Origin: Succinispira mobilis DSM 6222
GTDB lineage: Bacteria; Bacillota; Negativicutes; Acidaminococcales; Succinispiraceae
Direction of reading: 5' to 3'
NCBI RefSeq assembly: GCF_000384135.1
Contig: NZ_KB913028.1
Coordinates: 1,143,351 to 1,207,350, forward strand
DNA: 64,000 nucleotides
Positions within the stretch are counted from its first letter, which is position 1; each line of letters opens with the position of its first letter. Positions 2,810 through 29,156 of this stretch are shown piece by piece. A program made the translations under genes and the position numbers. A model generated the notes under the pieces. It was not told the origin of the DNA. It made no database searches and saw nothing but the letters and a program-made list of their open reading frames with translations.

Positions 2810-4738
2810 TTAGAATTTATACTCAACGCCTACTTGGATATTGCGTCCTTGCGCAGAGTACCAACTGCCATCTGGATTCATGTCATACATTTGGTCGGTA
2901 TAAAATTTATCGAAAAGATTATTAATTTTTATAAAAGTATTGATATTTTTATTAGCTTTATAGTTAAATGCTAGATCATATAACCAAAAACTTTGCAAAT
3001 TACTAGCAGTTTTAGTGGCGTTAACTTTACGCCCAGGACGATTTAAAATTCCCTTGGCACTTAAAACTGCATTAAATTTATCTTGGTTATAGTCTAAACT
3101 GATATTCCAGGCTCCAGTTGGAATATAGCCATCGCGGTTGGCATAAGTTTTGGCGGTTTCAGTCCCTGTAGTTGTATGTGTATAGCCAACCATTAAATCT
3201 AGATGTTTGCTTAATTCCTGACTGAGGTCAACACTCCAACCACGAGATTTTTCTTCCCCAGTATTGTAATATTTTACAGTTGTATTATTAAAGGCTAACA
3301 TATTATCAGCTTTGCGTTCATAGGCATTAAAGTTTACGGTAGTAGTATCGCTAAATTTATGTTTTACGCCAAACTCAATATTATCACCTTTTTCAGGGGT
3401 TAGCCCTTTGCCGCCATATTTTGAATATATTTGAAATTGATTAGGCGCGACAAAAAATTCTTTAAAGCTTAGATAATAATTAGTTTTTTCATTTTGCAAA
3501 TAGCCTAGAGTCAAACTTTTGGCGGTATTACTGCCGTATTCGGAATGATTATGATAGCGAATACCTGGAGTTAATGTCCAATTTTGAGCAAAGCGCCATT
3601 CGTCTTGGAGATAGAAAGCCCGATTAGTTAGTTTAATTCCTTGGTAGGCATCAGTGGTACCATAAGAGGTCGAAGAATACCTATTTACACGATCTTGATA
3701 ATAATCAAAGCCAGCAACTACAGTATGATCTTTACTAGTATGGGTAAGTTGTTCACTAAAACCGCGTGTTTCTAAATCCATTAACCAGACTGAACCCGGA
3801 TTTAAATAATTGTCATTTAAGAAATTTACATTGCGGTACAAAGAGACTTGATTTGAAAGATTTTTGCTAAATTTATTTTGATAACTCATACTTAGTTTAT
3901 TATTATCTTTTTTGCCGAAATTTTTTGTAGTGGCTTTTAGCCCACCGGTTGAAGGGCGAATGTAATCGGACTTGTATTTTTGGTAATTAAAAGTTAAAGT
4001 AGAATCATCTTTAAATTTTTTGCCCAGCTTCAGATCGTAAGTATCTGTATCTACATCTTGGATAATTTTATTACCACGGCCATCTTTATAGTCGCCTAAC
4101 TCATTTTTTTGAGCTGCAACTGTCCAAAAATAGTCATTAGCGTTACCTTGATTCATAATTTTATAAGTGCGTTTGTTGGCACTACCTAAAATTGTTGATA
4201 AAGAAGTAGTGCTCGAATCTTTACTAGCTTTGCGGGTGATAATATTAATTACCCCGCCGACAGCATCGGCTCCATATAGCGTAGATGCTGAACCCTTGAG
4301 CACCTCAATGCGCTCAATAGTATCCATATTGGAGAGTTCTGAAGGAGAAAAAACGCTTGAAACAGAACCATTGACATTAACGCGCATGCCATCAACCAAA
4401 ACCACAATTTTATCAGAACCATTAATGTAGAGTCGGTTAGAGGTGTAATTATCACCGCTAGCACTATAATTTTGCAAGTTTACGCCAGGGACTGTTTTTA
4501 GAGCATCACCTAAATCGGTATAATGATTTTTTTCTAAATCTTCGCGGCTGATTACACTGATGTTGGCTTGAGTTTTAAAAACTTCAGTGGGCAGCTTATT
4601 GGCCGTAACAACTATTTGCTCTAGAGCAAATTCAGGTAGTTCTGAGGACGTGTTGTTAGCTAGGGCACAGGGGGTTGAGAAAATAAGACTTGATAAAATA
4701 AGGACCGATAAATGTTTGCTTACAGATGTTTTTTTCAT
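2810..4738 (-). CDS. TonB-dependent outer-membrane receptor, BtuB-like
   Basis: This is a 642-aa receptor. It has a signal peptide ending in CALANN, a TonB-box-like segment EQIVVTAN (about 40-48), a plug domain with VPGVNLQNYSASG and VEVLKGSASTLYGADAVGGVINIITRK (typical plug end; here IERIEVLKGSAS...), and a 22-strand-type barrel. The last residue is a C-terminal aromatic (GVEYKF) as outer-membrane proteins have. A cobalamin riboswitch and terminator precede it, which supports corrinoid uptake. It is transcribed alone, away from the MerR gene. The N-terminal FAL-x-QIVVTA segment is shared with the two receptors at 12.8-16.8 kb. Confidence 0.92.
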   Translation of the reverse strand: MKKTSVSKHLSVLILSSLIFSTPCALANNTSSELPEFALEQIVVTANKLPTEVFKTQANISVISREDLEKNHYTDLGDALKTVPGVNLQNYSASGDNYTSNRLYINGSDKIVVLVDGMRVNVNGSVSSVFSPSELSNMDTIERIEVLKGSASTLYGADAVGGVINIITRKASKDSSTTSLSTILGSANKRTYKIMNQGNANDYFWTVAAQKNELGDYKDGRGNKIIQDVDTDTYDLKLGKKFKDDSTLTFNYQKYKSDYIRPSTGGLKATTKNFGKKDNNKLSMSYQNKFSKNLSNQVSLYRNVNFLNDNYLNPGSVWLMDLETRGFSEQLTHTSKDHTVVAGFDYYQDRVNRYSSTSYGTTDAYQGIKLTNRAFYLQDEWRFAQNWTLTPGIRYHNHSEYGSNTAKSLTLGYLQNEKTNYYLSFKEFFVAPNQFQIYSKYGGKGLTPEKGDNIEFGVKHKFSDTTTVNFNAYERKADNMLAFNNTTVKYYNTGEEKSRGWSVDLSQELSKHLDLMVGYTHTTTGTETAKTYANRDGYIPTGAWNISLDYNQDKFNAVLSAKGILNRPGRKVNATKTASNLQSFWLYDLAFNYKANKNINTFIKINNLFDKFYTDQMYDMNPDGSWYSAQGRNIQVGVEYKF

Positions 4739-4780: not shown

Positions 4781-4813
4781 ATAAAAAAGCCTTTCTTAAC
4801 TAAAAGAAAGGCT
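4781..4813 (-). terminator. Riboswitch expression-platform terminator
   Basis: On the minus strand AGCCTTTCTTT pairs with AAGAAAGGCT and is followed by TTTTTTATTTT. It lies between the cobalamin aptamer and the receptor start, so B12 binding probably ends transcription here. Confidence 0.85.
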
Positions 4814-4849: not shown

Positions 4850-5005
4850 TTTACCAGCACCCATCTCTCGTAGGTTATTTGCTAGGAATTTGATAGGTAG
4901 TTATTCTGACTTAGATTAAGCGCAAATTGCTTGGCTTATCATTACAGTGGCGGGACCGTGCTAGAATTTCACTAGCTTATCTATTAAATCTTGCGATACC
5001 GTATC
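4850..5005 (-). promoter_or_regulatory. Cobalamin riboswitch upstream of TonB receptor
   Basis: The minus strand holds the B12-box core CACGGTCCCGCCACTGT, then AAGTCAG, then the small hairpin CCTACGAGAGATGG (4861-4875). These are the conserved pieces of the cobalamin aptamer in order. The gap 4739-5100 between receptor and MerR gene holds this element, its terminator and the divergent MerR promoter region. Confidence 0.9.
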
Positions 5006-5100
5006 AATTATATTAAACTGTTAAATAGCTTTGTTTGTAATTTGCAACAGACAAGGTGAGTATAAACTATATACTAATAGTAGAGTAAAGGAGTTTTTTT

Positions 5101-5937
5101 GTGAATAAGAAAACAGAAATGTATTTTACCATAGGCGAATTCGCGAATCTTTTTGGCGTGTCTAAACAAACTTTATTTTATTATGAGCGCAATAAAATTT
5201 TCGAACCTGATTTAGTAGAAGAAAATGGCTATCGTTACTATTCTTTACATAAATATTATATTTTTGAAGTTATCATAACTTTGCGTAAATTGGGGTTACC
5301 ACTTCAAGAAATATCTGATTATGTTAAAAATCGCGATCTTGATGCTCTACAAGCAATTTTTAAAAAAAAATTAAGTGAATTTGAAGAAGAAGTTCAGATT
5401 TTACTTAAAAATAAAAAAAATCTGCAGACTAAAATAAGTCGTCTTGAACAAGTAAAACAAATTAGAATAGATAAAATAACTTTAGAAAATGTGCCGAAAG
5501 AGTATTTGATTGTGGACGATTTTCGTAAAAACACTGTGTCTTTAAAAGAAAAAATAGGTTTAGTAGCTAAACACAATCTTCCCTTTGCAACTAGTAGAAT
5601 TTTAAATGAATATTTAATGGGTTATATTCTAGAAAAAGAACAATTGCTTAATAATAGTTACACAAATATAAATAAAATTTTTACGCGAATTAGTGAGCCC
5701 ACGGAGTACCAAAACATTACAATTAAGCCTGCGGGTTTATATGCTACGATATTTACACCGGATTGCTGTCATGCAAATTATGGTAAAGCAATAAAAAAGC
5801 TTAAAGAATTTATCGAACTTAATAAATTGCAAATTGTGGGAGAAGGCTATATTAGCCAACTGAGAAATCATTGGTCGACAGCTAATCCGCAAGAATATGT
5901 AGCTCAGATTGCTTTGCAAGTTGATTATTTAGATTAA
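5101..5937 (+). CDS. MerR-family transcriptional regulator with GyrI-like ligand domain
   Basis: A 278-aa protein from a GTG with AAAGGAG upstream. The N-terminus is a MerR winged helix (FTIGEFANLFGVSKQTLFYY, then ENGYRYYS), followed by a coiled-coil dimerisation helix (about 75-125) and a C-terminal BmrR/GyrI-like effector domain (about 125-278; IKPAGLYATIFTP). There is no metal-binding cysteine loop of the classic MerR kind, so an organic effector is likelier. Two promoters in the window (5947-5977 and 12455-12485) have the 19-bp spacer and central dyad that MerR proteins act on. I infer that this protein controls the small His-rich protein and the NifHDK-like operon, perhaps in response to a tetrapyrrole. 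Confidence 0.88.
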   Translation: MNKKTEMYFTIGEFANLFGVSKQTLFYYERNKIFEPDLVEENGYRYYSLHKYYIFEVIITLRKLGLPLQEISDYVKNRDLDALQAIFKKKLSEFEEEVQILLKNKKNLQTKISRLEQVKQIRIDKITLENVPKEYLIVDDFRKNTVSLKEKIGLVAKHNLPFATSRILNEYLMGYILEKEQLLNNSYTNINKIFTRISEPTEYQNITIKPAGLYATIFTPDCCHANYGKAIKKLKEFIELNKLQIVGEGYISQLRNHWSTANPQEYVAQIALQVDYLD

Positions 5938-5946: not shown

Positions 5947-5977
5947 TTGACTCTATATGCGGTATATACTCTAGAAT
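5947..5977 (+). promoter_or_regulatory. MerR-type promoter with 19-bp spacer and operator dyad
   Basis: TTGACT (5947-5952), a 19-base spacer, then TAGAAT (5972-5977). The spacer CTATATGCGGTATATACTC contains a dyad. The over-long spacer is the hallmark of MerR-activated promoters. It drives the gene at 6019, just after the MerR gene. Confidence 0.7.
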
Positions 5978-6018
5978 GATAACTGGGTTAACCTAAAAAT
6001 TTATAATGAGGTGATTAT

Positions 6019-6348
6019 ATGCATACTAATAAAGAAACTGGACATCCCAAATATGAACTGCCTGATAATCCACACGCTAAGCACCGCTATGCTAGTGCAA
6101 TGAAACATGTTGAAGCGGCAAAAGCTGCTGGAAAAACAAGTGAAGAAATTCATGAAATATTCCACAAAATTATGGCTTTTGATCCAATGAACATTGAATC
6201 TATTCCTACAGATGAGGCTCACAAAAAATATCGTTCAGCAGTTATTCATGCCAAAAAAGCCATGGAAAGTGGTAAAAGTTCTGAAGAAGTACATAAAATA
6301 TTCCAAGATGTTTTAGCTAGCACAGGAACTGGGCATTGCAAACACTAA
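6019..6348 (+). CDS. Small His-rich protein with two internal repeats, function unknown
   Basis: A 109-aa, cytosolic-looking protein without signal peptide or membrane helix, with GAGGTG before the ATG. It holds two related units of about 35-38 residues, roughly 19-56 and 64-98. Each runs H-x-K-x-R-Y/S, a helix, a K-x-x-x-x-G-K-[TS]-S-E-E-[IV]-H-[EK]-I-F segment and then a hydrophobic helix end. Eleven or more histidines, one cysteine and the GHCKH end suggest possible metal or tetrapyrrole binding, but no known family is recognised. The MerR-type promoter upstream makes it a prime target of the neighbouring regulator. It ends just before a cobalamin riboswitch. Confidence 0.75.
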   Translation: MHTNKETGHPKYELPDNPHAKHRYASAMKHVEAAKAAGKTSEEIHEIFHKIMAFDPMNIESIPTDEAHKKYRSAVIHAKKAMESGKSSEEVHKIFQDVLASTGTGHCKH

Positions 6349-6375
6349 AATTTCGTAGTACAATTAAGGTCAGAA

Positions 6376-6520
6376 TACAATAACATATAAAGCTTAATTT
6401 GGAGAAGTATGGTGCAAAGCCATCGCGATCCCGTCACTGTAAGATAATTATTATCGAAGCCAGAGACCATTTTAAGTTTATTCTCTTTTGACCTACGAGC
6501 GATAGGATAGAGTTAATGTT
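6376..6520 (+). promoter_or_regulatory. Cobalamin riboswitch upstream of cbiZ-cobN-btuF
   Basis: The aptamer core is CGCGATCCCGTCACTGTAA with a T in place of the usual C in the box, followed by AAGCCAGAGACC and the hairpin CCTACGAGCGATAGG (6492-6506). A terminator follows at 6541. It controls the genes from 6598. Confidence 0.88.
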
Positions 6521-6540
6521 TGCATAAATTTATAACATTA

Positions 6541-6576
6541 GTGTCTTTCTGCTTTGCAGGAAGACACTTTTATTTT
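6541..6576 (+). terminator. Riboswitch terminator
   Basis: GTGTCTTTCTGC pairs with GCAGGAAGACAC (one mismatch) and is followed by TTTTATTTTT. It lies between the aptamer and cbiZ. Confidence 0.85.
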
Positions 6577-6597
6577 TAAAATTTTGAGGTGGATATT

Positions 6598-7689
6598 TTG
6601 AAATTAGTAGAGCTAAGCACAGGTGATATTGCATATAGATACGAAAAGAGCATAGTCTTATTTTTTGCAGGTAAACGTAAAGTTCTAAGTACTTCCCTTT
6701 ATAATGGTGGCTATCGTGAAGAATTAGTTGCAGTTTTTAATCATGATGGGACAATTGGTGCGGGAATTGGTTTTAAAATGTTAGCAGACTCTTATGATGA
6801 ACACATGCGGCTTATAGCCCAAAAAATTGGCTTGGATCCTAATAAGGTATCCGGAATGGGCACTGCTGCGAACATGGATAATGTGGCTATTTCCATGCTT
6901 AAATATGAGGATTTGACGGTTACAGCGATAGTAACAGGCGGAATCGAGATAAATGGTGGGCGGGTAGGTGACCCCTCTGATTTTTATAAACCAACTGAAA
7001 AGCCTGCTAAATTGGGCACAATAAATATTATGTTGGTAATTGATGCCGATATGCCAGCTGGCGCTATAGCCAGAGCTTTAGTTACATGTACCGAAGCTAA
7101 AACTGCGGCAATTCAAGAATTGCTAGCAGGAAGCAACTATTCTTATGGTTTGGCCACTGGTTCAGGTACAGATCAAACGATAGTGGTTGCCAATTCGATG
7201 AGCGCTTTGTATATGGAAAGTGCGGGCAAACATTCTAAATTAGGAGAACTAATTGGAAAAACAGTAATTCAAGCAGTTAAAGAAGCTCTTAGTAAGCAAA
7301 GTGGTTTAAATCCGAAAAATCAACATGATGTTTTCAAACGTTTAAAACGTTTCCAAATTAATACCGAATCTTTGTGGCAACAATATTTGCAAATTGTAGC
7401 CACCCCTGTTATCAAACCGCAGTTTCTAGAAATTTGTGAAATTTATGCTAAAAAAGAGAGCCTCGTTGTACCGATATCTTTATTAGCACACTTATTAGAT
7501 CAATTTAACTGGGGCTTGCTTAACGCTACAGAATGTGATTTATGGTTAAATAAAATATTAATGCAGATTGCGACTGAATTTCAAATTGAACTAAAGCTCG
7601 AGCAAGCTAGTAACTTAAAAGATTTTTTAACTAAAATTGAAGCAGCTTTATTGCAACTATTAATTGATAAATTAGCAGTAGAACAGTAG
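6598..7689 (+). CDS. cbiZ: Adenosylcobinamide amidohydrolase CbiZ with C-terminal extension
   Basis: CbiZ hydrolyses the amide bond joining the corrin ring to the aminopropanol arm, giving cobyric acid from scavenged cobinamide or cobamides. The first 240 residues match the family: GMGTAANMDN, TGGIEINGGRVGDP and ATGSGTDQTIVVAN. The last 115 or so residues are a helical extension that I do not recognise. The best start is TTG at 6598, five bases after GAGGTGG; a GTG at 6589 would overlap that ribosome site. It is first in a riboswitch-controlled operon with the CobN-like chelatase and a BtuF-like lipoprotein, fitting corrinoid salvage. Confidence 0.88.
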   Translation: MKLVELSTGDIAYRYEKSIVLFFAGKRKVLSTSLYNGGYREELVAVFNHDGTIGAGIGFKMLADSYDEHMRLIAQKIGLDPNKVSGMGTAANMDNVAISMLKYEDLTVTAIVTGGIEINGGRVGDPSDFYKPTEKPAKLGTINIMLVIDADMPAGAIARALVTCTEAKTAAIQELLAGSNYSYGLATGSGTDQTIVVANSMSALYMESAGKHSKLGELIGKTVIQAVKEALSKQSGLNPKNQHDVFKRLKRFQINTESLWQQYLQIVATPVIKPQFLEICEIYAKKESLVVPISLLAHLLDQFNWGLLNATECDLWLNKILMQIATEFQIELKLEQASNLKDFLTKIEAALLQLLIDKLAVEQ

Positions 7690-7703
7690 GGGAGTAAGAA
7701 ATT

Positions 7704-10700
7704 ATGAAGAAAATTTTATTTTTAACTAATATAGAACGGCAAATTTGGTTTTGGCAACAAGCAGTAGCCTTGCTTGATTTAAACAAAGTTGCCACAGAAT
7801 TTAGCCAATGCCAAATTAGTGAGAGTACTCCTTGGGGAAAAGAATGGTTAGCGCTGATAGAAAAACAAGACTTAGTTTTAATAAAATGGATGGGAACTGG
7901 CTTAGATTGCAGCTTTTTAAGAAATTTGTCAGCTTTTATGCAACAAGTGAAAATTAAGCATCTTTTTTTAGTAGCTGATGCCGGTCAAGATAATTTAAGT
8001 TTGGGACTTAGCAAGGAACAGGAAAATAAAATTTATAAATACTTTAATTATGGGGGCATAAATAATTTTGAAAACTGTTTGTTATGGTTAACCAGTGAAA
8101 TCTTAGGCGAAAAACAGTTCTATTATGAACCGAAACTTTTGCCTTGGAATGGCATCTATCACTATGCAAGCGAAAATATTTATGAAGACTTAGCCAGCTA
8201 TCAAGCAAAGTACTGCAGACCCAATAGGGCTACTATTGGTTTAATCTTTTATCGGGATGAATGGATTTTAGGAGATTTATCTTATCAAACGGAAATTATT
8301 AAAGCGTTAGAAGCACGAAACTTAAATGTAATTGCTGTTTTCAGTAATGGACAAGCTAACCCCGATATTGATTCAGAAGGTTTGCGCGAGGCTTTTGCTA
8401 AATATTTTTATCAAGATACAAAACCGATTATTGACGTACTTATAAATTGTATAAAATTTTCCTTGACAACAACACGAGCTTTAGACTTAGCTGTTCTAGA
8501 AAATTTAAATGTGCCGATTTTACAAGCCTATACGTTGGCTAATAATAAGGTTGACTGGGAGAAAAGTTGTGAAGGTATGACGCCGATGGAAATCTCAATC
8601 AGTATTAGCTTGCCAGAGTTTGACGGAGTTATTCACTCCATTCCAGTGGCTACTAATGAGAGAACGGACGAAGGTCGTTCCCGTTATATATGTTTACCCG
8701 AGCGAATTGAGTTATTAGCACGTAAAGTTGAAAAATGGACAAATTTGAAGTATAAGAAGAATAGTGCTAAAAAAGTTGCTATTGTTTTTCATAATTATCC
8801 AGCTTCAAATTCTAATATTGGCAGTGCCGCTGGCTTAGACTCGCCTGAAAGTGTGCGTTTACTATTAAAAGAGTTGGCAAGACAAGGGTATGAAGTGGAC
8901 TGGATTCCAGAAAATAGTCAAGAATTTATGAAAATACTAACCGCTAATGCAACTAATGATCGCCGCTATATTTCAGAGCGACAAATTGCCGATGCATATG
9001 GTCATCTAACTACTGCAGCCTATTTAGATTTTTTCAAAAAACTTGATGAGAAAACAAAGGCGCAACTTACTCTAGATTGGCAAGAAGCGCCTGGGGATGT
9101 CTTTAATTATGACGGGCAGTTATTAATTCCTGGGACTATTAATGGAAATGTTTTTATAACAGTGCAGCCACCGCGGGGGTTTGAAGAAGATTCCGGTAAA
9201 TTAATTCATTCGCCTGACTGTGCACCAACACATCATTATATTGGGTTTTATCATTGGCTACGTGATATTTGGCAAGCTGATGCAGTTATTCATGTCGGTA
9301 CGCATGGTACCTTAGAATGGTTACCAGGTAAAGGTGCGGGTTTGTCTAAAGCTTGTTATCCAGATATCTCTATTGGAGATATGCCTAATATTTACCATTA
9401 TTGGATTACGGTGGTTGGTGAAGGGGTCCAAGCTAAACGTCGTAGTGCCGCTTGCCTAATTAGCTATTTGAGTCCACCAATGACAACTTCTGGGACTTAT
9501 GAAGAATTAGAAGAACTAGAAAAAACTTTAGATGAATATTGTCACTTTAAAATTACTCAACCTGAAAATATTGCTACTTTGCAAGATCTAGTTCGAGAAA
9601 AAGCTAGTGCGGCAAATTTAGCCGAAGAAATATTAGAAAGTGACTGTTCGCATTTCGACGATTATGTGGGGAAATTACATAGCTATGTTACGGATATAAA
9701 AAATATGCAAATGCGCTGTGGTCTACATATTTTAGGCGAAGCACCACAGTCAGATGAACTAACAGAATATATTTTTTCTTTAACGCGCCTAGAAAATGGC
9801 GATATTGCAGCTCTAACAAAAACTTTAGCTACTATTTACGGATTTGATTATTATACTTTGTTAGAAAATAGTAGTGTTATGTGTGCTAAGCGCAACAAAA
9901 CGTATGGAGTGCTTATTGACGAAATATTTTTGCTAGCGAGACGTTTTGTTGAATATTTGGCAAAACAAGAGTTTATTTTGAGAAGTTGTGAGGAAATTTT
10001 CGCTTGGCCTGAATTGAAAAACTGTAATAATTTTGCTAAATCAGAGCTGGAAAAGTTAGCTGGATATATTTGCGAGACAATTTATCCTAATTTGGTAAAA
10101 ACAAAACAGGAAATTGACAATACCTTACGGGCTTTACAGGCTGAATATATTCAACCGAGTCCAGCTGGAGCACCTAGTAGTGGCGGTGCAGATTTGTTGC
10201 CAACTGGTAGAAATTTTTACGGTGTTGACCCTAGAACCTTGCCGACACCTGCTGCTTGGGAAATAGGTAAAAATCTCTCAGAACAGGTAATAGAACGCTA
10301 TATTGTAGAGGAAGGGACTTATCCGGAGAGTGTGGGCATAATTTTGTGGGCAGGCGCAAATATGCGTAGTCATGGTCAATGCATTGCCGAATTTTTACAT
10401 TTGATGGGTGTGCGGCCAATATGGCAAAAAGGAAGTTTGCGCGTTATCGATCTAGAGGTAATTTCTTTAGACCAATTACAAAGACCGCGGGTAGATGTAA
10501 CTGGTCGGGTAAGTGGCTTATTCCGAGATAGTATGCCGGGGGCAATTAATTGGCTAGATAGAGCTGTTAAGTTAGTAGCTGATTTAGATGAGCCACTAGA
10601 AATGAACTTTATTCGTAAACACATGTTGCTGGATACGCAAGAATTAATTAATGAGGGCGTAGCTGCGGATTTAGCTTGGCAACAAGCCGGATATAGAATT

Positions 10701-11417
10701 TTTGGTGATCCACCAGGAGCCTATGGTGCAGGCGTAGGCCAACTTTTAGAGTCAAAGAACTGGACAACAATTGATGACTTAGCAAATGTATATGTCAGAT
10801 TTTCGGCACATGCTTATGGCAATGATGTCCGCGGTAGCTATCAGCCACAATTATTTAAAAAACGCATGTCCCAGTTAGATGTTACTATCAAAAATGGTGA
10901 TAATCGGGAATCACATATGCTGAACTCAGATGATTATAATGCTTATCAAGGGGGCATGATTGCTACAGTTCGTTCTTTAAGCGGCAAAAAGCCACGGTCT
11001 TATTGTGGTGATAGTACTGACCGTAGTAAAGTTGAAATGCGTAGTTTACAAGAAGAAATGAAAAGAATTTTCCGTGGTGAAGCCGTAAATCCTAAATTTA
11101 TTCAGGGTATGAAAAAACATGGATATAAAGGGGCTCAAGATATGGCTAACTACCTAGCCCATAGTTATCAATGGGATGCCACCAGTGGGATAATGGAAGA
11201 TTGGATGTATGAAAAGTATGCGGCTAAATACGCATTTGATAAAGAAATCCAAGATTGGATGCGCGATGTAAATCCTTGGGCGTTACAACGGCTAACGGAA
11301 ATATTATTAGAGGCCGAACAACGTGGCTTGTGGAACGCAAAACCAGAAACAAAGGCGGAATTGCAAAAAATTTATCTATCTTTAGAAGGAGAACTTGAGG
11401 AACGTAATGATGGATAG
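7704..11417 (+). CDS. cobN: CobN/BchH-family large chelatase subunit
   Basis: This 1237-aa protein is the size of the large, tetrapyrrole-binding subunit of ATP-driven chelatases (CobN for cobalt, BchH/ChlH for magnesium). Family motifs are clear: VGTHGTLEWLPGKGAGLS (about 533), GGADLLPTGRNFYGVDPR (about 830), then GDPPGAYGAGV and SAHAYGNDVRGSY. It starts 14 bases after cbiZ and overlaps the next gene. The partner AAA+ subunits (17635 and 18676) are in the next operon under the same B12 control. Anaerobes that insert cobalt early use CbiK/CbiX instead, so this enzyme may serve another metal, another ring or metal exchange. Metal choice cannot be read from sequence. Confidence 0.9.
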   Translation: MKKILFLTNIERQIWFWQQAVALLDLNKVATEFSQCQISESTPWGKEWLALIEKQDLVLIKWMGTGLDCSFLRNLSAFMQQVKIKHLFLVADAGQDNLSLGLSKEQENKIYKYFNYGGINNFENCLLWLTSEILGEKQFYYEPKLLPWNGIYHYASENIYEDLASYQAKYCRPNRATIGLIFYRDEWILGDLSYQTEIIKALEARNLNVIAVFSNGQANPDIDSEGLREAFAKYFYQDTKPIIDVLINCIKFSLTTTRALDLAVLENLNVPILQAYTLANNKVDWEKSCEGMTPMEISISISLPEFDGVIHSIPVATNERTDEGRSRYICLPERIELLARKVEKWTNLKYKKNSAKKVAIVFHNYPASNSNIGSAAGLDSPESVRLLLKELARQGYEVDWIPENSQEFMKILTANATNDRRYISERQIADAYGHLTTAAYLDFFKKLDEKTKAQLTLDWQEAPGDVFNYDGQLLIPGTINGNVFITVQPPRGFEEDSGKLIHSPDCAPTHHYIGFYHWLRDIWQADAVIHVGTHGTLEWLPGKGAGLSKACYPDISIGDMPNIYHYWITVVGEGVQAKRRSAACLISYLSPPMTTSGTYEELEELEKTLDEYCHFKITQPENIATLQDLVREKASAANLAEEILESDCSHFDDYVGKLHSYVTDIKNMQMRCGLHILGEAPQSDELTEYIFSLTRLENGDIAALTKTLATIYGFDYYTLLENSSVMCAKRNKTYGVLIDEIFLLARRFVEYLAKQEFILRSCEEIFAWPELKNCNNFAKSELEKLAGYICETIYPNLVKTKQEIDNTLRALQAEYIQPSPAGAPSSGGADLLPTGRNFYGVDPRTLPTPAAWEIGKNLSEQVIERYIVEEGTYPESVGIILWAGANMRSHGQCIAEFLHLMGVRPIWQKGSLRVIDLEVISLDQLQRPRVDVTGRVSGLFRDSMPGAINWLDRAVKLVADLDEPLEMNFIRKHMLLDTQELINEGVAADLAWQQAGYRIFGDPPGAYGAGVGQLLESKNWTTIDDLANVYVRFSAHAYGNDVRGSYQPQLFKKRMSQLDVTIKNGDNRESHMLNSDDYNAYQGGMIATVRSLSGKKPRSYCGDSTDRSKVEMRSLQEEMKRIFRGEAVNPKFIQGMKKHGYKGAQDMANYLAHSYQWDATSGIMEDWMYEKYAAKYAFDKEIQDWMRDVNPWALQRLTEILLEAEQRGLWNAKPETKAELQKIYLSLEGELEERNDG

Positions 11418-12423
11418 AAAACAGAAAAAATTTGTGAGATTTTTGTTTATAACTTTTTTAGCTATAATTTTAACTTTCATTTTAACTGCTTGCAAAACAA
11501 GTTCAGAGAAAGAACAAAAAGTTGCTAATTTTAACTATCAGGTGACAGATGTCCAAGGAACAGTGGTGAAGTTTGAGAAAAAACCAGAAAGAATTTTGAC
11601 TTTGGCAATGGGCACAGATGGAATTGTTTTAGGTTTAGTACCACCAACTAGATTAGTTGGCGTAAATCATCTGTTAGATGATCCTAATAGTTCTAACATC
11701 GTAGCTAAAGCGAAACAAATCCCAACTAAGATTAAAAATCCTACAGCCGAACAAATCTATGCTTTGAAGCCAGATGTAGTTATTGTCCCGAACTGGGGAA
11801 AGGCTGAGATTGTAGATAATTTACGCGATTTAGGTTTAAAGGTAGTGGTTTGTAAAGGGGCAAGTACCATCGAAGAAGTTCAAGAAAATGTACTCTTAAT
11901 TGCACGTACTTTGGGTGAGGAAGCAAAAGGGTTAAAACTTGTTGAGAAAATGAAAGCAAAATTGCAAGAAATAGATGCTAAAGTAATTAAAATTTCACCT
12001 GCACAAAGAAAAAAAGTCGTTTTGATTTCTTTGATGGCTTCATATGGCGGAATAGGTAGCTCGTTTGATGCCATTTGTACGCGGGCTGGAGTAATAAACG
12101 GTGTTGCTGAAGCGGGGATTAAAAATGGTCAAATTTTAGGTAAAGAGCGCTTGGTAGAAGTAAATCCTGATTTTTTAATTTTGCCAGTGTATAATGATCA
12201 TGGTAATTTTGATATTAATAAACATAATAATGAATTTCTCCTAGATCCGTCCTTACAAACTCTGACAGCAGTTAAAGAGCGGAAACTGTATTACCCGCGC
12301 GAAGGTTACATCTACAACGTTTCTCAAGATATAGTTTTTGGTGTCCAAGAATTAGCTTACGCCGCTTATGGAGAAAGTTTTACCCAGCCTGCTGATTGTC
12401 ATCTTTCTGTAGCGGAAGAATAA
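11407..12423 (+). CDS. btuF: BtuF-like ABC transporter substrate-binding lipoprotein
   Basis: A periplasmic binding protein of the cobalamin/haem/siderophore class. It begins with a lipoprotein signal (hydrophobic stretch and lipobox LTAC at about residue 27) and has the two-lobe helical-backbone fold pattern: PERILTLAMGTDGIVLGLV and LKPDVVIVPNW. The start at 11407 has GAGG six bases upstream and overlaps the end of the CobN-like gene by 11 bases. No permease follows it here; it probably shares BtuC (24996) and BtuD (27142). A second BtuF-like protein is encoded at 24027. Confidence 0.88.
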   Translation: MMDRKQKKFVRFLFITFLAIILTFILTACKTSSEKEQKVANFNYQVTDVQGTVVKFEKKPERILTLAMGTDGIVLGLVPPTRLVGVNHLLDDPNSSNIVAKAKQIPTKIKNPTAEQIYALKPDVVIVPNWGKAEIVDNLRDLGLKVVVCKGASTIEEVQENVLLIARTLGEEAKGLKLVEKMKAKLQEIDAKVIKISPAQRKKVVLISLMASYGGIGSSFDAICTRAGVINGVAEAGIKNGQILGKERLVEVNPDFLILPVYNDHGNFDINKHNNEFLLDPSLQTLTAVKERKLYYPREGYIYNVSQDIVFGVQELAYAAYGESFTQPADCHLSVAEE

Positions 12424-12454
12424 AAAATATGCCAGTTGCTATTGCTAGTTAAAC

Positions 12455-12485
12455 TTGACTGTATACTAGGTATATAGTTTATAAT
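12455..12485 (+). promoter_or_regulatory. Second MerR-type promoter, upstream of the NifHDK-like operon
   Basis: TTGACT (12455-12460), a 19-base spacer GTATACTAGGTATATAGTT, and TATAAT (12480-12485). The spacer matches that of the promoter at 5947 at 13 of 19 positions and is a near-palindrome with its flanks. It lies just upstream of the riboswitch leader, so the operon is probably under both MerR and B12 control. Confidence 0.72.
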
Positions 12486-12512
12486 CAAAATAATTTTGGA
12501 AAACTTAATATC

Positions 12513-12682
12513 AAGTAGGCGCCATAAGGCTTAATTGGGAAATCGGTGTAAATCCGATGCGGTCCCGCCACTGTAATGCGGTTAAATAATTTTGACAAGC
12601 TGTCTAATTAAATTAACCCTAAGTCAGCAAAACTACCTACTTTTTACCATATCCCTACGAGCGATAGGGAGGTAGGTGCAAT
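12513..12682 (+). promoter_or_regulatory. Cobalamin riboswitch upstream of the TonB receptor/NifHDK-like operon
   Basis: A very clear aptamer: AAGGCTTAATTGGGAA, GGTGTAAATCC, GCGGTCCCGCCACTGTAA, CTAAGTCAG and the hairpin CCCTACGAGCGATAGGG (12653-12669). The interval 12424-12820 holds the MerR-type promoter, this aptamer, its terminator and the ribosome site. Confidence 0.95.
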
Positions 12683-12694
12683 GTATTTGTATTG

Positions 12695-12734
12695 CTAGAC
12701 CTCTGTATCACTTAGGTGGGGGTCTAGTTTTTTT
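12695..12734 (+). terminator. Riboswitch terminator
   Basis: CTAGACC pairs with GGTCTAG around an inner ACCT/AGGT helix and is followed by seven T. It separates the aptamer from the receptor gene. Confidence 0.85.
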
Positions 12735-12820
12735 GTGTTTTTGTTGCCAGTTATGACTCTGCAAGATGAGATAAATGGGAACTTAACAAATATAAAATGA
12801 TTTCGAAAGGAAGTTTATTA

Positions 12821-14764
12821 ATGGCTTATTTAAGACGAGGTAAAATCAAATTAACGCAAGGATTATTTTTAAGTGCTCTTATTCTTAGTAGTATTTGTTC
12901 CGGTAAAGTGCAGGCGGCTGAGGTTGATCAATTAGAAACTTTTGCTCTAGATCAAATTGTGGTTACGGCAACTCGAAGCGAAAAACGTGATGTAGATGTC
13001 GCTGCTTCCACTACGATTTTGACGGCAAAAGACTTGCAAAATACAGGTGCAAGCAATATTCAAACAGCTCTTGCCAAAGTTCCAGGTCTTGCATATAAAA
13101 CTTTTGGACCAGGTGGCTCTGCATTTGGGACAATGTCCAATGAAATAACTATTCGTGGGGTTAGTAATGGTACGTTAGTTATGATTAATGGCTCGCCGAT
13201 TAATCTGCGGGGCAAATATTATTTAGATTCTATTCCTGTGGAAAATGTTGAGCGCGTAGAAATTATCAAAGGTGGCGGCGCAGTACTTTATGGTAGCGAA
13301 GCCATGGGTGGCGTAATTAACATTATTATGAAAAAAGAATTTGCAAATAGCATTACAGCTGGCGTAGGTAATTATGGACAGCAAAAATACGATTTAACGT
13401 TGAACGCAGATAAACTAAATGTCGGCTATAATTTAGAAAAATGGGGTAATGTAAACACCATTTCTAAAAATACAGACAAAGGTAATAAACACACAGATGC
13501 TACTGGTTCAGAAAAAAACAGTATTTTAATGGAATATAACTTCAATGATAAATTACAACTGATGTACAATTATTTAGAGACAGAGGCTAGCTATGATACT
13601 TGGTTTGATGGTGCTTATAAATCAGTTCCAGCAACGGGTAGTTTGCAACAAAATCGTAAATATGGCACAAAACAAAATGTTGTTCAACTAAATTATACAG
13701 ATGATAATTTTAAAGCAAAAGCTTATTATAATCAAAATAAACTTACTGCCGACGGCTTTACGAAATATGACACTTCAGGGAATTTAAAGAACACTATTTA
13801 CGATACTGATGAAAAAAATAGAACTTATGGAGTAGATTTACAAAAAAATTGGGATTTAAATACTAGAACCAAAACAATTTTAGGATTTACTTACCAAAAC
13901 GAATTTTATACAGATTACAGTACTAAAAAATATGATCGCAATAATTTAGCTTTTTACGGACAATGGGAACAAAAGTTAAGCGACTTAAATACTTTAAGCT
14001 TAAGTGCTCGTGAAACTTGGACAACTGGCGCGCCAGGAGATCAAAACTATAATAATTTTAGTGCTCAAGGCCAGTTGAGTCATAAACTAGCAGAAAATGA
14101 AAATCTTTATGCTAGTGTAGGTCAGTCCTTTATCATGCCAACTTTCGCTCAAATGTATGGCTCAAGTGATACAGCAATTCCTAATCCTGGTTTAAAAGAG
14201 CAGACTGGCGTTAATTATGAAATGGGTTGGAAAAAAATCTCTGGCGACCATAGTTGGAAAATGGCTGTTTATCACATTGACATTACAGATAATATAAGTG
14301 CGAAGTGGAATAAAACTAAAAGCAACTATACCTATAGTAATGAAGACTTTATTAATACTGGTTTAGAACTTACAGCGGATATTCATGATCAAAATGGTTG
14401 GAGCTATAATTGGGGCATAAACTTAAGTAACCCTAAAGCCAAACAAGAGGGCTCAGATTGGGATAGAAAATATGGTAAATTACAAGTAACTGGTGGCGTG
14501 ACTTATGCGAAAGATAAGTGGAGAAGCAGTTTGACAGGAAGCTATATGGGTAAACGGGTGGCAGCACCAAGTTCAGAAAAATCTAGCGCCTTAAAACCAT
14601 ACTTTTTAACTAGTTTAACCACAACTTATATTTGCGATAAAAATAGTGAAATCACTTTAAGCTTAGAAAACATTTTTGATAGAAAAGACATTTTAAATCA
14701 TTCTGGTTCAGAGTATTATGCTACACCGTTTAACTTCTTATTGAGTTACAATTATAAGTTCTAA
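12821..14764 (+). CDS. TonB-dependent outer-membrane receptor
   Basis: A receptor of about 647 aa with a signal peptide ending in KVQAAE, TonB-box-like DQIVVTATR, a plug domain (VPGLAYKTFGPGG, VEIIKGGGAVLYGSEAMGGVINIIM) and a C-terminal barrel ending in NYKF. The start at 12821 has AAAGGAAG eight bases upstream; an ATG at 12797 has none. It is first in a long operon that continues to 27095, under a cobalamin riboswitch. The ligand is probably a corrinoid or other tetrapyrrole, but this is inferred from context only. Confidence 0.92.
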   Translation: MAYLRRGKIKLTQGLFLSALILSSICSGKVQAAEVDQLETFALDQIVVTATRSEKRDVDVAASTTILTAKDLQNTGASNIQTALAKVPGLAYKTFGPGGSAFGTMSNEITIRGVSNGTLVMINGSPINLRGKYYLDSIPVENVERVEIIKGGGAVLYGSEAMGGVINIIMKKEFANSITAGVGNYGQQKYDLTLNADKLNVGYNLEKWGNVNTISKNTDKGNKHTDATGSEKNSILMEYNFNDKLQLMYNYLETEASYDTWFDGAYKSVPATGSLQQNRKYGTKQNVVQLNYTDDNFKAKAYYNQNKLTADGFTKYDTSGNLKNTIYDTDEKNRTYGVDLQKNWDLNTRTKTILGFTYQNEFYTDYSTKKYDRNNLAFYGQWEQKLSDLNTLSLSARETWTTGAPGDQNYNNFSAQGQLSHKLAENENLYASVGQSFIMPTFAQMYGSSDTAIPNPGLKEQTGVNYEMGWKKISGDHSWKMAVYHIDITDNISAKWNKTKSNYTYSNEDFINTGLELTADIHDQNGWSYNWGINLSNPKAKQEGSDWDRKYGKLQVTGGVTYAKDKWRSSLTGSYMGKRVAAPSSEKSSALKPYFLTSLTTTYICDKNSEITLSLENIFDRKDILNHSGSEYYATPFNFLLSYNYKF

Positions 14765-14813
14765 ATAAAAGTGAACAAGTTACTTAACCTAAAGAAGATT
14801 TATTAAAAAACAA

Positions 14814-14842
14814 GCTAGTATCTTAAACTTTAAGATACTAGC
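14814..14842 (+). other. Intercistronic hairpin between two receptor genes
   Basis: Fourteen bases (GCTAGTATCTTAAA) and their exact complement around one base, without a following T-tract. It is more likely an mRNA-stability or processing hairpin than a terminator. Confidence 0.65.
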
Positions 14843-14866
14843 CGTTAATAAGAGGAGCGAAGAACG

Positions 14867-16780
14867 ATGCGAAACAAGAAAAAAACCTTGCTACTAGCTG
14901 TAGCTTGTTGCAGTGTTTTTTATACAAGTCAAGTGTCTTTAGCAGCAGAAAGGCAAGAACTAGAAACTTTTGCCTTAGATCAAATTGTGGTTACGGCAAC
15001 GCGGAGCGAGAAAAAATTGGTTGATACGCCTGCAAATGTTACGGTAATTACAGCTGAGGAAATCACGCGCAAAGGTTATCAATCAGTTACGGAAGCTTTA
15101 GAAAATGTACCTGGAGCAATTGTCACTAGTAATGGTTTTGTGGGCTCAGAACAACATGTGTTATTAAATGGTGAAGAACGGGTGCTTTTTTTAGTAAATG
15201 GCCGACGGATGAACCTTGATCGTGGTGGCGGGCATGGCCGACAAGCTTTTGATTTACGTTCTTTACCGAATATAGGCGCTATTGAAAAAATTGAAGTTGT
15301 AAAAGGTGCTAGCACTACTTTATATGGAACGGATGCCGTAGGTGGGATTATTAATATTATTACCAAAAAAGGTGCGGCGCAAGTAGCAAGTTTAGATGTA
15401 AGCAGTGGTTCTTGGGGAACAGAAAATTATAAATTAGCTGTAGGTGGCAAAACTAATGCCGGCTTAGGTTACTATGTAACGTTAAAAAAATCAGAACAAG
15501 ATTATGTTAAATTTAAAAAAGTTAAAAATAATCAAGAAATTAAGTGGGCGAATACTAGTTATGAATCAACCGCAGCTACAATTCGCTTAGATAAACAATT
15601 TGATGCCGATAAAGCAGCAACTTTAACTTTTGAGCACAGTATTGCAGATGCAGGTCAGCCTTATAATCCGCCAGGTTTTTCAGGGTTCAAAGCTACAGAT
15701 ACATCCACGATTTTAGATAACAATGTGATGGCTAAATACGAATGGGGCTTAAGTGGCGATAATAAAGGTTTTGTGCAAGTATTCCGCAACCATAATGTTG
15801 GTAATACCTATAGCTCTACTAGTCACAGTACTTATACTGAAGAAAAAGATGGTTTAGCATTGCAACAAGCTTGGCAAACTAGTACAAGCAATCAAATTAT
15901 AGCGGGGTTTGATGCCAATAATTCTAAAGTAAATAACACTAGCTCTTTTGTAGAAGAAAAAGAAATTAAAACAAAAGCTTTTTATTTGCATGATACTTGG
16001 AACTTTACAGATAGCTGGCAATTAAACGCTGGGGTGCGTTATGATAAACATAATTATTTCGGACATGAAACTACAGCTAGTTTGGCTTTAAACAAAAAAT
16101 TTACTGATACTAGTAACGCTTACATTTCTTGGAATCAAATTTTCAATGCCCCTAATGGCAATGATTTATTTTATAATAGCTCTTGGGCAAAAGGTAATTT
16201 AAATCTTAAACCAGAAACTGGGGATGTAATTTCTCTAGGCTACAATGTTCAAGCATCTGCTAGTACTAACATCAGTATGAGTTATTTTAAAAGCGAAATT
16301 AAAGATGCTATAGATTGGTATGATGCAGGTACTTATTGGACCGTTAAGAATGTTAATAAACAAAAGAAAGATGGTTTCGAATTATCAGTAAATCATAAGC
16401 TTTCAGAAAAGTGGACAACTTGGGCAGCCTATTCTTATGTAAATGTTAAAAATAGTAAGTCCGATGCTCCTTTTGAACGAGATTTAACTGTTCGACCTAA
16501 TAACTATAAAATAGGTTTGCGTTACAATCAAGAAAAATTAAATATTGAACTATTAGGGCGAATTTCTTCTGGCTTAAGTAATAAGCAATATGCCGAAGAA
16601 AATTATTTAACTTTTGATTTAAGCGCTCAATATAAATTTAATAAAAACTCAAAAGCTTATTTGAAAGTATATAATCTAAATAATGTAGCTTATAGTGAAA
16701 AAGCTGGTATTGCCAATGGAGAATATAGTTTTCCAATGCCAGGTAGATCAATTTTAGTCGGCATGGAATACGCATTTTAG
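14867..16780 (+). CDS. TonB-dependent outer-membrane receptor
   Basis: A 637-aa receptor with a signal peptide ending in SLAAER, the same LETFALDQIVVTATRSEK segment as the preceding receptor, a plug (VPGAIVTSNGFVG, IEKIEVVKGASTTLYGTDAVGGIINIIT) and a barrel ending in GMEYAF. AAGAGGAGCG precedes the ATG. Apart from the N-terminal segment it differs from its neighbour, so the pair probably does not bind the same ligand in the same way. BtuB-like by context. Confidence 0.92.
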   Translation: MRNKKKTLLLAVACCSVFYTSQVSLAAERQELETFALDQIVVTATRSEKKLVDTPANVTVITAEEITRKGYQSVTEALENVPGAIVTSNGFVGSEQHVLLNGEERVLFLVNGRRMNLDRGGGHGRQAFDLRSLPNIGAIEKIEVVKGASTTLYGTDAVGGIINIITKKGAAQVASLDVSSGSWGTENYKLAVGGKTNAGLGYYVTLKKSEQDYVKFKKVKNNQEIKWANTSYESTAATIRLDKQFDADKAATLTFEHSIADAGQPYNPPGFSGFKATDTSTILDNNVMAKYEWGLSGDNKGFVQVFRNHNVGNTYSSTSHSTYTEEKDGLALQQAWQTSTSNQIIAGFDANNSKVNNTSSFVEEKEIKTKAFYLHDTWNFTDSWQLNAGVRYDKHNYFGHETTASLALNKKFTDTSNAYISWNQIFNAPNGNDLFYNSSWAKGNLNLKPETGDVISLGYNVQASASTNISMSYFKSEIKDAIDWYDAGTYWTVKNVNKQKKDGFELSVNHKLSEKWTTWAAYSYVNVKNSKSDAPFERDLTVRPNNYKIGLRYNQEKLNIELLGRISSGLSNKQYAEENYLTFDLSAQYKFNKNSKAYLKVYNLNNVAYSEKAGIANGEYSFPMPGRSILVGMEYAF

Positions 16781-16788
16781 CAAAATGG

Positions 16789-16812
16789 TGGACTGGGAGT
16801 TTTCTCAGTCCA
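16789..16812 (+). other. Intercistronic hairpin after the second receptor
   Basis: TGGACTG pairs with CAGTCCA (with GAG/CTC inside a TTTT loop) and no T-tract follows. Like the hairpin at 14814 it may protect or process the receptor part of the message and lower expression of the downstream enzyme genes. Confidence 0.55.
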
Positions 16813-16847
16813 TCTTCAATTCAAGACTTAGTAATTGGAGTTAAAAC

Positions 16848-17630
16848 ATGAAAATAGGTTTATTACATTTAAATCTGAGTTTAGGCTCAGAAGCTAAAAA
16901 CTTAAAAATTTTGGCACAAGCAATTGAACTAGCTAGTAAAAAAGGTGCGAAGTGGCTGATAACTCCTGAAACAGCAGTACAGGGCTATTATTTTTATCGG
17001 CAAAACCCTAATAGCAAAATTGAACCACAACCTTCAGCTAAGTTAGAACAAATCCAGACGATTGTAAAACAATATCAATTAACTTTATTTTTAGGCACTA
17101 GCGAATATGTTAAAGAACAAGCATGTAATTTTAATACCTGTTTAGTTTTTGGCAATAATGGCGATGTAATCGGGCGACATAGAAAGTTAATTTCACATGC
17201 TACTGGGGCAGAAGCTTGGGCTACGAGAGCTAGTTGTTTAGAACCGATTTCTGTGTCACAACAGTTTAAAGTAGGTGCTTTAGTGTGTGCTGATGCATGG
17301 TATCCAGAACACGGAAAAATTTTGCGTGACAAAGGGGCGAAAATTTTAGTTAATATAGCTGCCTGGCCGCCGACAGAAACTTGTGGCAATCCGTTAACAG
17401 CTTGGCAACGTTGTTCTTTAGAAGCTGAATTACCCTTAATTTTATGTAACCAGACCGGAGAAAATCCTTGGATGAATATGACTCAGGCGCAGAGTGTTGT
17501 TATTGAAAATGGGGAAGTTAAACTAACTCATTCGGGGGAAGAAAAAATATTGCTTTTTGATTGGGATTTTGAAAAAAATTGTCTGATTTCAACAGCTTAT
17601 GAAAAAATAGAATTTAAATATAAGGGGTAA
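16848..17630 (+). CDS. Carbon-nitrogen hydrolase (nitrilase superfamily amidase)
   Basis: A 260-aa cytosolic enzyme with the family triad visible: Glu41 ([10 protein letters not shown]), Lys113 (GRHRKLISH) and Cys147 ([10 protein letters not shown]). Members hydrolyse carbon-nitrogen bonds, mostly primary amides or omega-amides. GGAG precedes the ATG, and chlI starts four bases after its end. Position between TonB receptors and chelatase subunits suggests a side-chain amide of an imported tetrapyrrole, such as a corrin acetamide, as substrate. That is inference; a general omega-amidase role cannot be excluded. Confidence 0.85.
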
Positions 17631-17634
17631 GAAA

Positions 17635-18660
17635 ATGAAAAGAAAAGTAGTATATCCATTTACGGCGATTGTAGGTCAAGAAGATATGAAACTATCGTTA
17701 ATTTTAAATGTAATAAACCCATCTTTAGGTGGGGTATTGATTAAGGGTGAAAAGGGTACTGCGAAATCTACTGCAGTAAGAGCGTTAGCTGAGCTTTTGC
17801 CAGCGATGCCAATGGTAGATGGTTGTAAATTTAATTGCGATCCTAGTGCTGTGAATAATTATTGTGAAGCCTGTAATGAGCAAGTGAAAAACAGCCAAAG
17901 TTTGGCACAAAAAAATGCTAAAATGCGTGTGGTAGAATTGCCAGTAAGTGCGACAGAAGATCGAGTTGTGGGAACTTTGGATATTGAGCATGCAATTAAA
18001 CATGGAGAGAAAAAATTTGAGGCAGGAATTTTAGCACAAGCGAATCGCAATATTCTCTATGTAGATGAAATAAATTTGCTTGATGACCATGTAGTAGATG
18101 TGTTGCTAGATGCAGCAGCTATGGGTATTAATACCGTAGAACGTGAAGGTATCTCTTATTCGCATCCTGCTAGGTTTGTACTAGTAGGAACAATGAATCC
18201 AGAAGAAGGTGACATTCGCCCCCAACTCCTGGACCGTTTTGGGCTTTCGGTAGTAGTTGTAGGCGAGCATGAACCACAACAGCGAGTTGAAGTAATAAAA
18301 CGTCGCTTGGCTTATGAAGAAGATCCAGAGGTGTTTGCGCTAGAATATCAAACAGAACAAGAAGCTTTGGCGGCTAAAATAATGCAAGCTAGAGTAGTAT
18401 TACCCCAAGTTCAAATTCCAGAACCTTTATTATTTAATGTAGCTAAACTAGTAGTTGAATTGGGTGTAGATGGACATCGAGCTGATATCACGGTAATTAA
18501 AGCAGCATTAACTTTAGCTGCTTTTGCCGGTCGCAAAGTCGTAGAATTAACCGATATCAAAGATGCCGCAAAATTAGTATTACCACATAGAATGCGTAGA
18601 AGACCTTTTGAAGATAGCGTTTTAGACTGGAGCAAAGTGGAAGCCTTGTTGGATAATTAA
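17635..18660 (+). CDS. chlI: ChlI/BchI-type AAA+ chelatase subunit
   Basis: The motor ATPase of a magnesium/cobalt-type chelatase, 341 aa. The Walker A motif is GEKGTAKST (38-46), Walker B is [11 protein letters not shown], and the family signatures [11 protein letters not shown] and [20 protein letters not shown] follow. Cysteines 64, 68, 77 and 80 (CKFNC, YCEAC) form a likely zinc or cluster site, as in several ChlI-like proteins. It should form hexamers with the ChlD-like protein and drive the CobN-like subunit at 7704. Confidence 0.92.
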
Positions 18661-18675
18661 AAGGAGCGAATACTA

Positions 18676-20622: not shown

Positions 20623-20644
20623 TATTAGGTGTAAGGAGGCAACA

Positions 20645-21457
20645 ATGAAAAAAATAGCTATATATGGCAAAGGCGGAATTGGTAAATCTACAACTTCAGC
20701 GAATCTTTCGGCTGCTTTTAGTGAAATGGGTCATAAAGTTTGCCAAATAGGGTGTGATCCTAAAAACGATTCTACAAGATTGCTTTTGGGTCGTATTTGT
20801 CGGGAAACAGTGTTAGATATGGTACGCGAAAGTGAAGATGGAGAAGTAACTGCGGCACAGATTATTCATACAGGTTTCAATGGTATTCAATGTGTAGAAG
20901 CAGGTGGACCTGAGCCAGGTGTGGGTTGTGCTGGACGAGGTATAATTGTAGCTTTGGAAAAAATTCGCGCTTTGGGAGCGATTGCTGAGGAGCAACTAGT
21001 AATTTATGATGTATTAGGTGATGTAGTTTGTGGTGGCTTTGCCGTGCCAATTCGCGAAGGTTATGCTACAGATATTTATATAGTTTCTTCAGGTGAGCTA
21101 ATGTCACTATATGCGGCTAATAATATCGCCAAAGGTATTCAAAAATTCGCTAAACGTGGTAAAGTACGCTTGGGTGGTATTATTGGCAATGGACGCAACA
21201 CGGAAAATGAACTTGAAGTTTTAACAGAATTTGCAACCAAAATCAACTCAAAATTAATTATGTATATTCCTAGAGACAAGGTTGTTAATCAGGCAGAGGT
21301 GCAAAGAAAAACTGTTATTGAATGGGCTCCAGAATCGAATCAAGCGGATATATATCGCACTTTGGCCAAAAAAATGGATACCAATGAGGACTTAAGAATA
21401 CCAGAACCCCTTTCGTTTGAAGAATTAGAAGAGTTGGTTTATAAGTATGGCAATTAA
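20645..21457 (+). CDS. NifH/BchL-like iron-sulfur ATPase (reductase component)
   Basis: A 270-aa P-loop ATPase of the nitrogenase iron-protein family. It has GKGGIGKST (8-16), the switch GCDPKNDST (36-44), and the two cysteines that bind the bridging [4Fe-4S] cluster in the dimer: Cys95 (GVGCAGRG) and Cys129 (DVVCGGFA). It passes electrons, with ATP hydrolysis, to a NifDK-like partner, whose genes follow with overlap. GTAAGGAGG precedes the ATG. Sequence alone does not assign it to NifH, BchL, CfbC or other branches. Context (chelatase subunits upstream, B12 transport downstream) points to a tetrapyrrole substrate rather than N2. Confidence 0.92.
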
Positions 21458-24024: not shown

Positions 24025-24026
24025 CG

Positions 24027-24980: not shown

Positions 24981-24995
24981 TTAGGAGAATGATTT

Positions 24996-26030: not shown

Positions 26031-26036
26031 AGGATT

Positions 26037-27095: not shown

Positions 27096-27135
27096 AAAAA
27101 TCGCTTTATACTTTTTTAGTATAGAGCGATTTTTT
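27095..27135. terminator. Bidirectional terminator between convergent operons
   Basis: AAAAAATCGCTTTATACT pairs with AGTATAGAGCGATTTTTT, giving T-tracts on both strands. It ends the operon from 12821 and the minus-strand btuD gene. Confidence 0.88.
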
Positions 27136-29130: not shown

Positions 29131-29156
29131 ATATTATTAAATTGTATCTGTTCTAG

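Follow-up and report, generated by a model that had tools for sequence, protein, structure and literature searches.

Putative MerR-type promoters with 19-bp spacers in series with cobalamin riboswitches at a CobN/NifHDK-like gene cluster of Succinispira mobilis

Introduction

How is a gene cluster controlled that combines nitrogenase-like (NifHDK-like) genes, a CobN-like chelatase subunit and TonB-dependent receptors, and what could the MerR-family gene beside it contribute? We addressed this question in a 64,000-nucleotide stretch of Succinispira mobilis DSM 6222 (contig NZ_KB913028.1, positions 1,143,351 to 1,207,350), which we call the window; positions refer to it unless given as genome positions. 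A preliminary description had proposed two MerR-type promoters with matching 19-base-pair (bp) spacers and dual control of the NifHDK-like operon by MerR activation and B12 repression. BmrR and EcmrR, two drug-sensing MerR activators, remodel spacers of this length (PMC7722741, PMC8113463). Our analysis raises the two sites to at least four, three in the window and one elsewhere in the genome, and the proposed dual control by the MerR regulator and by B12 is well supported by the anatomy of the locus and its comparison with relatives.

Results

The three sites and the gene of the presumed regulator are arranged as follows.

5101-5937, plus strand: MerR-family regulator of 278 amino acids (aa), with a winged-helix DNA-binding domain, a coiled-coil helix and a C-terminal GyrI-like effector domain
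5947-5977, plus strand: putative 19-bp-spacer promoter/operator, TTGACT-CTATATGCGGTATATACTC-TAGAAT, upstream of a gene for a 109-aa protein
12455-12485, plus strand: putative 19-bp-spacer promoter/operator, TTGACT-GTATACTAGGTATATAGTT-TATAAT, 15 bp 5′ of a cobalamin riboswitch
5089-5059, minus strand: third putative 19-bp-spacer promoter/operator, TTTACT-CTACTATTAGTATATAGTT-TATACT, divergent from the MerR gene and highest in matrix score

The two promoters proposed at the outset, at 5947 and 12455, are present exactly where they had been placed, and the MerR-family gene at 5101 was confirmed. Their spacers are indeed identical at 13 of 19 positions, a value that random pairs of 19-mers from the window reach with a frequency of 3.4e-4. 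The best spacer dyads comprise 7 of 9 pairs at 5947 and 8 of 9 at 12455. Two promoters named for comparison, at 30979 (plus) and 29157-29185 (minus), have 17-bp spacers, as had been read. The bare -35/-10 pattern with at most one mismatch occurs at chance level in this AT-rich window (3 matches against 3.7 expected), so that the significance of the sites comes from the spacer and from comparison.

A score matrix was built from eight sites near orthologous regulators in other genomes, with our own genome held out. On both strands of the 64-kb window it placed 5089(-) (33.6), 12455 (33.5) and 5947 (18.4) at ranks 1 to 3, and the next score was 10.0. Top scores in five simulated single strands of 2.09 Mb were 12-18, which 18.4 barely exceeds; by the orthologue matrix site 5947 is thus only marginal. 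A second matrix, derived from other cluster-linked clades, gives this site 28.9, against null maxima of 14-19. A whole-genome scan with a sequence-only held-out model from the same eight sites gave expectation values (E) of 1.6e-5 for 12455, 8.8e-5 for 5089(-) and 1.9e-4 for a site at genome position 662351. The chance-level count of bare hexamers would suit an origin of the sites as accidental promoter-like sequences in AT-rich DNA, an explanation refuted by the held-out ranks together with the reversed-pattern controls and the gene linkage described below; we give it practically no weight. The window sites look like MerR-type promoters in their sequence.

The dyad near 5075 had been suggested to serve autoregulation. 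It proved to belong chiefly to the divergent promoter 5089(-), which is directed toward a cobalamin riboswitch, then a terminator, then a TonB receptor. A near-identical counterpart lies in the same position in loci L054/L048, and in MerR homologues the site usually occupies the other strand, no more than a few tens of bases from the regulator start. Autoregulation could still arise as a by-product, because the operator of 5089(-) is overlapped by a candidate promoter of the MerR gene itself:

5048-5075, plus strand: weak candidate MerR-gene promoter, CAGACA-16-TATACT, a consensus match only, overlapping the divergent operator

To see what these promoters would transcribe, we list the elements downstream of them.

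2810-4738, minus strand: TonB-dependent receptor (Pfam Plug and beta-barrel)
4788-4813, minus strand: intrinsic terminator behind the 4879-5018 riboswitch (z -4.4)
4879-5018, minus strand: cobalamin riboswitch aptamer (Rfam RF00174, 43.2 bits)
6019-6348, plus strand: 109-aa helical, histidine-containing protein, a constant neighbour of these MerR regulators
6377-6515, plus strand: adenosylcobalamin riboswitch aptamer separating the 109-aa gene from CbiZ (Rfam RF01482, 56.0 bits)
6540-6568, plus strand: intrinsic terminator behind the 6377-6515 riboswitch (z -7.3)
6589-12423, plus strand: CbiZ (6589-7689), CobN-like chelatase subunit (7704-11417) and periplasmic binding protein (11395-12423), from Pfam/NCBIfam
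12500-12654, plus strand: cobalamin riboswitch aptamer (Rfam RF00174, 61.7 bits)
12694-12728, plus strand: intrinsic terminator behind the 12500-12654 riboswitch (z -3.8)
12797-27095, plus strand: operon of two TonB receptors, nitrilase, ChlI-like, ChlD-like, NifH/NifD/NifK-like, binding protein, FecCD permease and radical S-adenosylmethionine (SAM) genes
27095-27135, plus strand: strong terminator closing the operon

All three aptamers exceed the curated Rfam score, and U-tract terminators follow all three leaders. At 5089(-) and at 12455 the order is the same: site, cobalamin riboswitch, transport gene. Within the operon at 12797-27095 neighbouring genes either overlap or leave gaps of no more than about 100 bp, and its plus strand holds no convincing terminator ahead of 27095-27135. 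Given this unbroken gene order, transcription of the NifHDK-like genes plausibly starts at 12455 and runs through the riboswitch, and control by MerR and B12 in series is the natural reading. A hairpin at 14814-14843 was considered as a break in the operon and rejected, as it lacks a U-tract on the plus strand; it lies between the two TonB genes, pairs perfectly over 13 bp and has a T-tract for the minus strand only. On the 5947 transcript the 109-aa gene precedes the riboswitch and so would escape B12 control.

The same chain of putative MerR promoter, cobalamin riboswitch, terminator and transport gene was seen in G021/L144, G031/L054, Phascolarctobacterium faecium L058 and L059, four genomes besides that of S. 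mobilis. The tandem of P. faecium is located in a different tree clade from the window MerR. Altogether 12 cobalamin riboswitches were found in the S. mobilis genome. Six of them directly follow a clear promoter with a 17-bp spacer, and the same reading can be given to another two (L018, weak; L019, overlapping the aptamer start); the dyad occurs in none of these eight promoters. Separately, a sub-threshold cobalamin riboswitch (27 bits) lies at 29028-29171 (minus), 5′ of minus-strand genes for a TIM-barrel protein and an ATP-binding cassette (ABC) ATPase. Dense riboswitch groups were seen in relatives as well: six cobalamin riboswitches in 10 kb in a further Negativicutes genome (INTA.CYC.032; L064, 1536-9812), some paired about 300 bp apart, and five in 20 kb in Sporomusa ovata (L053, 615-20229).

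To assess conservation of the operator, we collected 78 MerR homologues across Bacillota from 84,980 species genomes and examined 300 bp upstream of each. The pattern TTGAC-N-19-TAnnnT occurred 52 times, in 51 of the 78 regions, against 1.15 expected. Spacings of 15-18 and 20-23 were at or near background; a second peak, at 14, presumably arises because the dyad is itself read as a -10 element. The preliminary description had named lack of spacer conservation in relatives as grounds for abandoning its proposal, and the spacer is conserved. These spacings also bear on a rival explanation, in which the regulator binds but mainly represses, the riboswitch does the regulating and the 19-bp spacer just holds basal expression low. 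Apo MerR proteins do repress (PMC9909328), and each transcript already carries a complete riboswitch-terminator. However, very diverged homologues keep the 19-bp spacing while other spacings stay at background, as expected if untwisting serves activation; moreover, the sites of many relatives have no riboswitch behind them, so there the promoter must be regulated by itself. We consider predominant repression improbable.

The linkage of the operator to particular genes was followed at several taxonomic levels. At the family level, the search returned our own genome only. In the order, the exact operator pattern gave 48 matches in 16 of 63 genomes and the reversed pattern none; the 109-aa gene is present in 14 of these 16 and in 18 of all 63 (hypergeometric p 8e-9, uncorrected for relatedness). 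In Acidaminococcales, homologues of the regulator adjoin CobN, NifHDK, ChlI/D, TonB, binding-protein and 109-aa genes, and one Phascolarctobacterium genome has several diverged paralogous regulators, each by its own cluster with its own sites. Sites accompany CobN/NifHDK/TonB clusters in Negativicutes. When the held-out model was run over 380 genomes of the class, all 14 inspected loci adjoined MerR, 109-aa, CobN, NifH or TonB genes, though some of them are the model's own source sites and match by construction. In Sporomusa-type orthologues the site equivalent to 5947 sits 79-87 bp 5′ of the same 109-aa gene. A tree of 48 homologues, made by a quick method without bootstrap, placed the window MerR in an eight-row clade (Shimodaira-Hasegawa-like approximate likelihood ratio test 99), and in seven of the eight rows a cobalamin riboswitch lies no more than 10 kb away.

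We then turned to the regulator. Its N-terminus matches the MerR winged helix (Pfam MerR_1, E 2.7e-14), and phmmer aligned it with BmrR over residues 6-274 (E 3e-10 to 7e-10). The AlphaFold2 model (predicted local distance difference test score 90) has a long coiled-coil helix at 80-119. Its best PDB match in Foldseek was BmrR 3d71 (E 5e-15, template modelling score 0.75), with further matches to EcmrR and the BmrR C-terminal domain. Judged by this model, the regulator appears to have the BmrR-like fold and architecture. The Pfam scan of the protein found no GyrI domain, no CbiC/CobH-like domain and no B12-binding domain, and the C-terminus, QIALQVDYLD, carries no CoaR-type Cys-His-Cys motif. 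Lacking a CbiC-like or B12-binding domain, the regulator is neither CoaR nor CarH. All full-length proteins of the regulator's clade carry His224, which few other homologues share; we take this residue as a lead for a metal-tetrapyrrole ligand, and nothing more.

The genome beyond the window was scanned by pattern and by model. The fourth putative site, at genome position 662351, is 480 kb away, upstream of a nitrilase homologue 43% identical to the operon nitrilase. That nitrilase gene is divergent from one, by eye a methylmalonyl-CoA mutase subunit gene, which has a cobalamin riboswitch on its 5′ side (C1:662101-662277, minus; L008). A second MerR of the subfamily, 29% identical, is encoded at genome position 235108 and has its own 19-bp site. 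By eye, it adjoins a divergent gene for a multidrug and toxic compound extrusion (MATE)-type pump (C1:234699-235917; L021, L052), the classical drug-pump arrangement. The existence of this homologue with a site of its own suggests that it, or an unrelated factor, might use the window sites while the neighbouring MerR regulates something else. Yet the paralogue site scores 36.1 with a matrix of Bacillus-type homologues and 15.7 with the orthologue matrix, whereas the window sites prefer the cluster matrices, and MerR and site remain linked in orthologues. Use of the sites by another factor is therefore, in our view, very unlikely.

Three further genome matches were not accepted. The match at 578467, 5′ of an EAL/HDOD gene, scored 6.0 with the held-out matrix; that at 1307892 (E 0.08), once inspected, showed no -35 and -10 elements in a matching arrangement; and at 1696079 the hexamers are 17 bp apart (TTTACT-17-TAAAAT; held-out score 4.6). 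As an observation of its own, C1:1696079-1696264 (L003, L014) holds a similar dyad 5′ of a cobalamin riboswitch and an Opp/Nik-type ABC transporter operon.

The homologues of the 109-aa protein in these clusters are 48-70% identical. No PDB match was found by sequence or fold, and the structure search was empty. The protein has two helical repeats with many conserved histidines, occurs in one copy per carrier genome across the order and matches no family; our guess is a metal or tetrapyrrole carrier. Elsewhere in the window, a T-box leader lies at 62882-63074 (123.5 bits).

Discussion

Taken together, the MerR protein of 5101-5937 is very probably a BmrR-type, ligand-responsive activator of the cluster regulon, acting upstream of a B12 riboswitch layer. 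A MerR dimer would bind the dyad in the 19-bp spacers of 5089(-), 5947 and 12455, and probably also at genome position 662351. By analogy with BmrR and EcmrR, from which we infer the activation mechanism, the effector-bound protein would bend and under-twist the spacer, making the promoter usable by RNA polymerase. Transcripts from 5089(-) and 12455 would run straight from their start into a cobalamin riboswitch that has its own terminator; that from 5947 would carry the 109-aa gene first and then the riboswitch ahead of CbiZ-CobN. With promoter and riboswitch in series, full expression of the uptake and processing genes would need the MerR signal to be present and B12 to be absent.

Several points weigh against this picture. 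Site 5947 is the weakest by the orthologue matrix (18.4) and only sixth in the whole-genome model scan (E 0.83). A promoter-like TTGCAA-17-TACAAT at 6336-6364 could independently drive the 6377 riboswitch and CbiZ-CobN. No evident gene follows the divergent site of S. ovata (L053, 9987 minus), and in G021 site and riboswitch stand apart from the MerR gene, whose own upstream region lacks a good site. Finally, because the genome encodes another MerR of the same subfamily, assignment of the sites rests on linkage and matrix preference.

As to the effector, our guess is a tetrapyrrole or corrinoid that the cluster handles. It is possible, though we put it forward tentatively, that the GyrI-like domain (possibly through His224) senses an incoming tetrapyrrole or incomplete corrinoid, each transcript then being an AND-NOT gate: raw material present, finished B12 absent. 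Alternatively, as with BmrR, some generic lipophilic or cationic compound could be the effector, and the regulon could serve detoxification. GyrI-like domains bind varied drugs (PMC8113463), and in S. ovata a MATE pump gene is two genes from the MerR orthologue. The targets here are uptake receptors, binding proteins and chelatase/reductase genes, though, rather than efflux pumps, and the several Phascolarctobacterium paralogues with their own clusters and sites suggest substrate-specific sensing. A detoxification regulon seems to us rather unlikely, if worth keeping in mind.

If a tetrapyrrole or corrinoid is sensed, paralogous regulators by paralogous clusters would form a natural set of sensors, with a different tetrapyrrole for each. 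A regulator of its own, with a clear-cut operator, would make the substrate of the cluster directly approachable, as a promoter reporter could tell which tetrapyrrole activates. The operator pattern can be used to locate further clusters in Negativicutes, and an inducible MerR promoter in series with a B12 riboswitch would amount to a natural logic gate of a simple kind, which several genera have retained.

Among known systems, BmrR of Bacillus subtilis and EcmrR are closest, with a shared full-length fold, domain order and a palindrome in the 19-bp spacer; a palindrome within a spacer of 19-20 bp, typical of BmrR-type target promoters, is found at all three window sites. Identity to BmrR in the structural alignment is about 20%, and B12 riboswitches are present on the transcripts here. 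BmrR targets a drug pump, whereas the targets here are TonB, CobN, nitrogenase-like and binding-protein genes. Our sites precede TonB, 109-aa/CbiZ/CobN and nitrilase genes and no drug efflux pump, the control of such a pump being a trait of BmrR itself and not of every member.

CoaR of Synechocystis, a MerR-family cobalt sensor, likewise ties MerR-type activation to cobalt and B12 biology (PMC7689651), but it has a CbiC/CobH-like domain and a C-terminal Cys-His-Cys, neither of which was found in the window regulator. The photoreceptors CarH/LitR share with it the MerR DNA-binding domain and a connection to B12, and CarH is described as a B12-binding repressor (PMC4557120); their B12-binding domain was not found in our protein by Pfam, and its top Foldseek matches are to BmrR. 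In the moa operon of Escherichia coli, transcription factors and a molybdenum cofactor (Moco) riboswitch act on one operon, with the MerR-family CueR implicated. There the predicted CueR site is downstream of the riboswitch (PMC2408646), whereas the MerR promoter here is directly 5′ of it. HmuS/BtuS of Bacteroidota are CobN-like proteins accompanied by TonB uptake genes, as here, and HmuS takes iron out of heme (PMC12583661); in a comparison that leaves hmu operon regulation aside, the clusters described here add NifHDK-like and ChlI/D-like genes, a MerR regulator and riboswitches. None of the open-licence papers searched was found to describe a MerR promoter placed in series with a cobalamin riboswitch. 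The kind of promoter is already known; what appears to be new is that it is coupled in series, and conservedly so, to B12 riboswitches at nitrogenase-like/CobN clusters.

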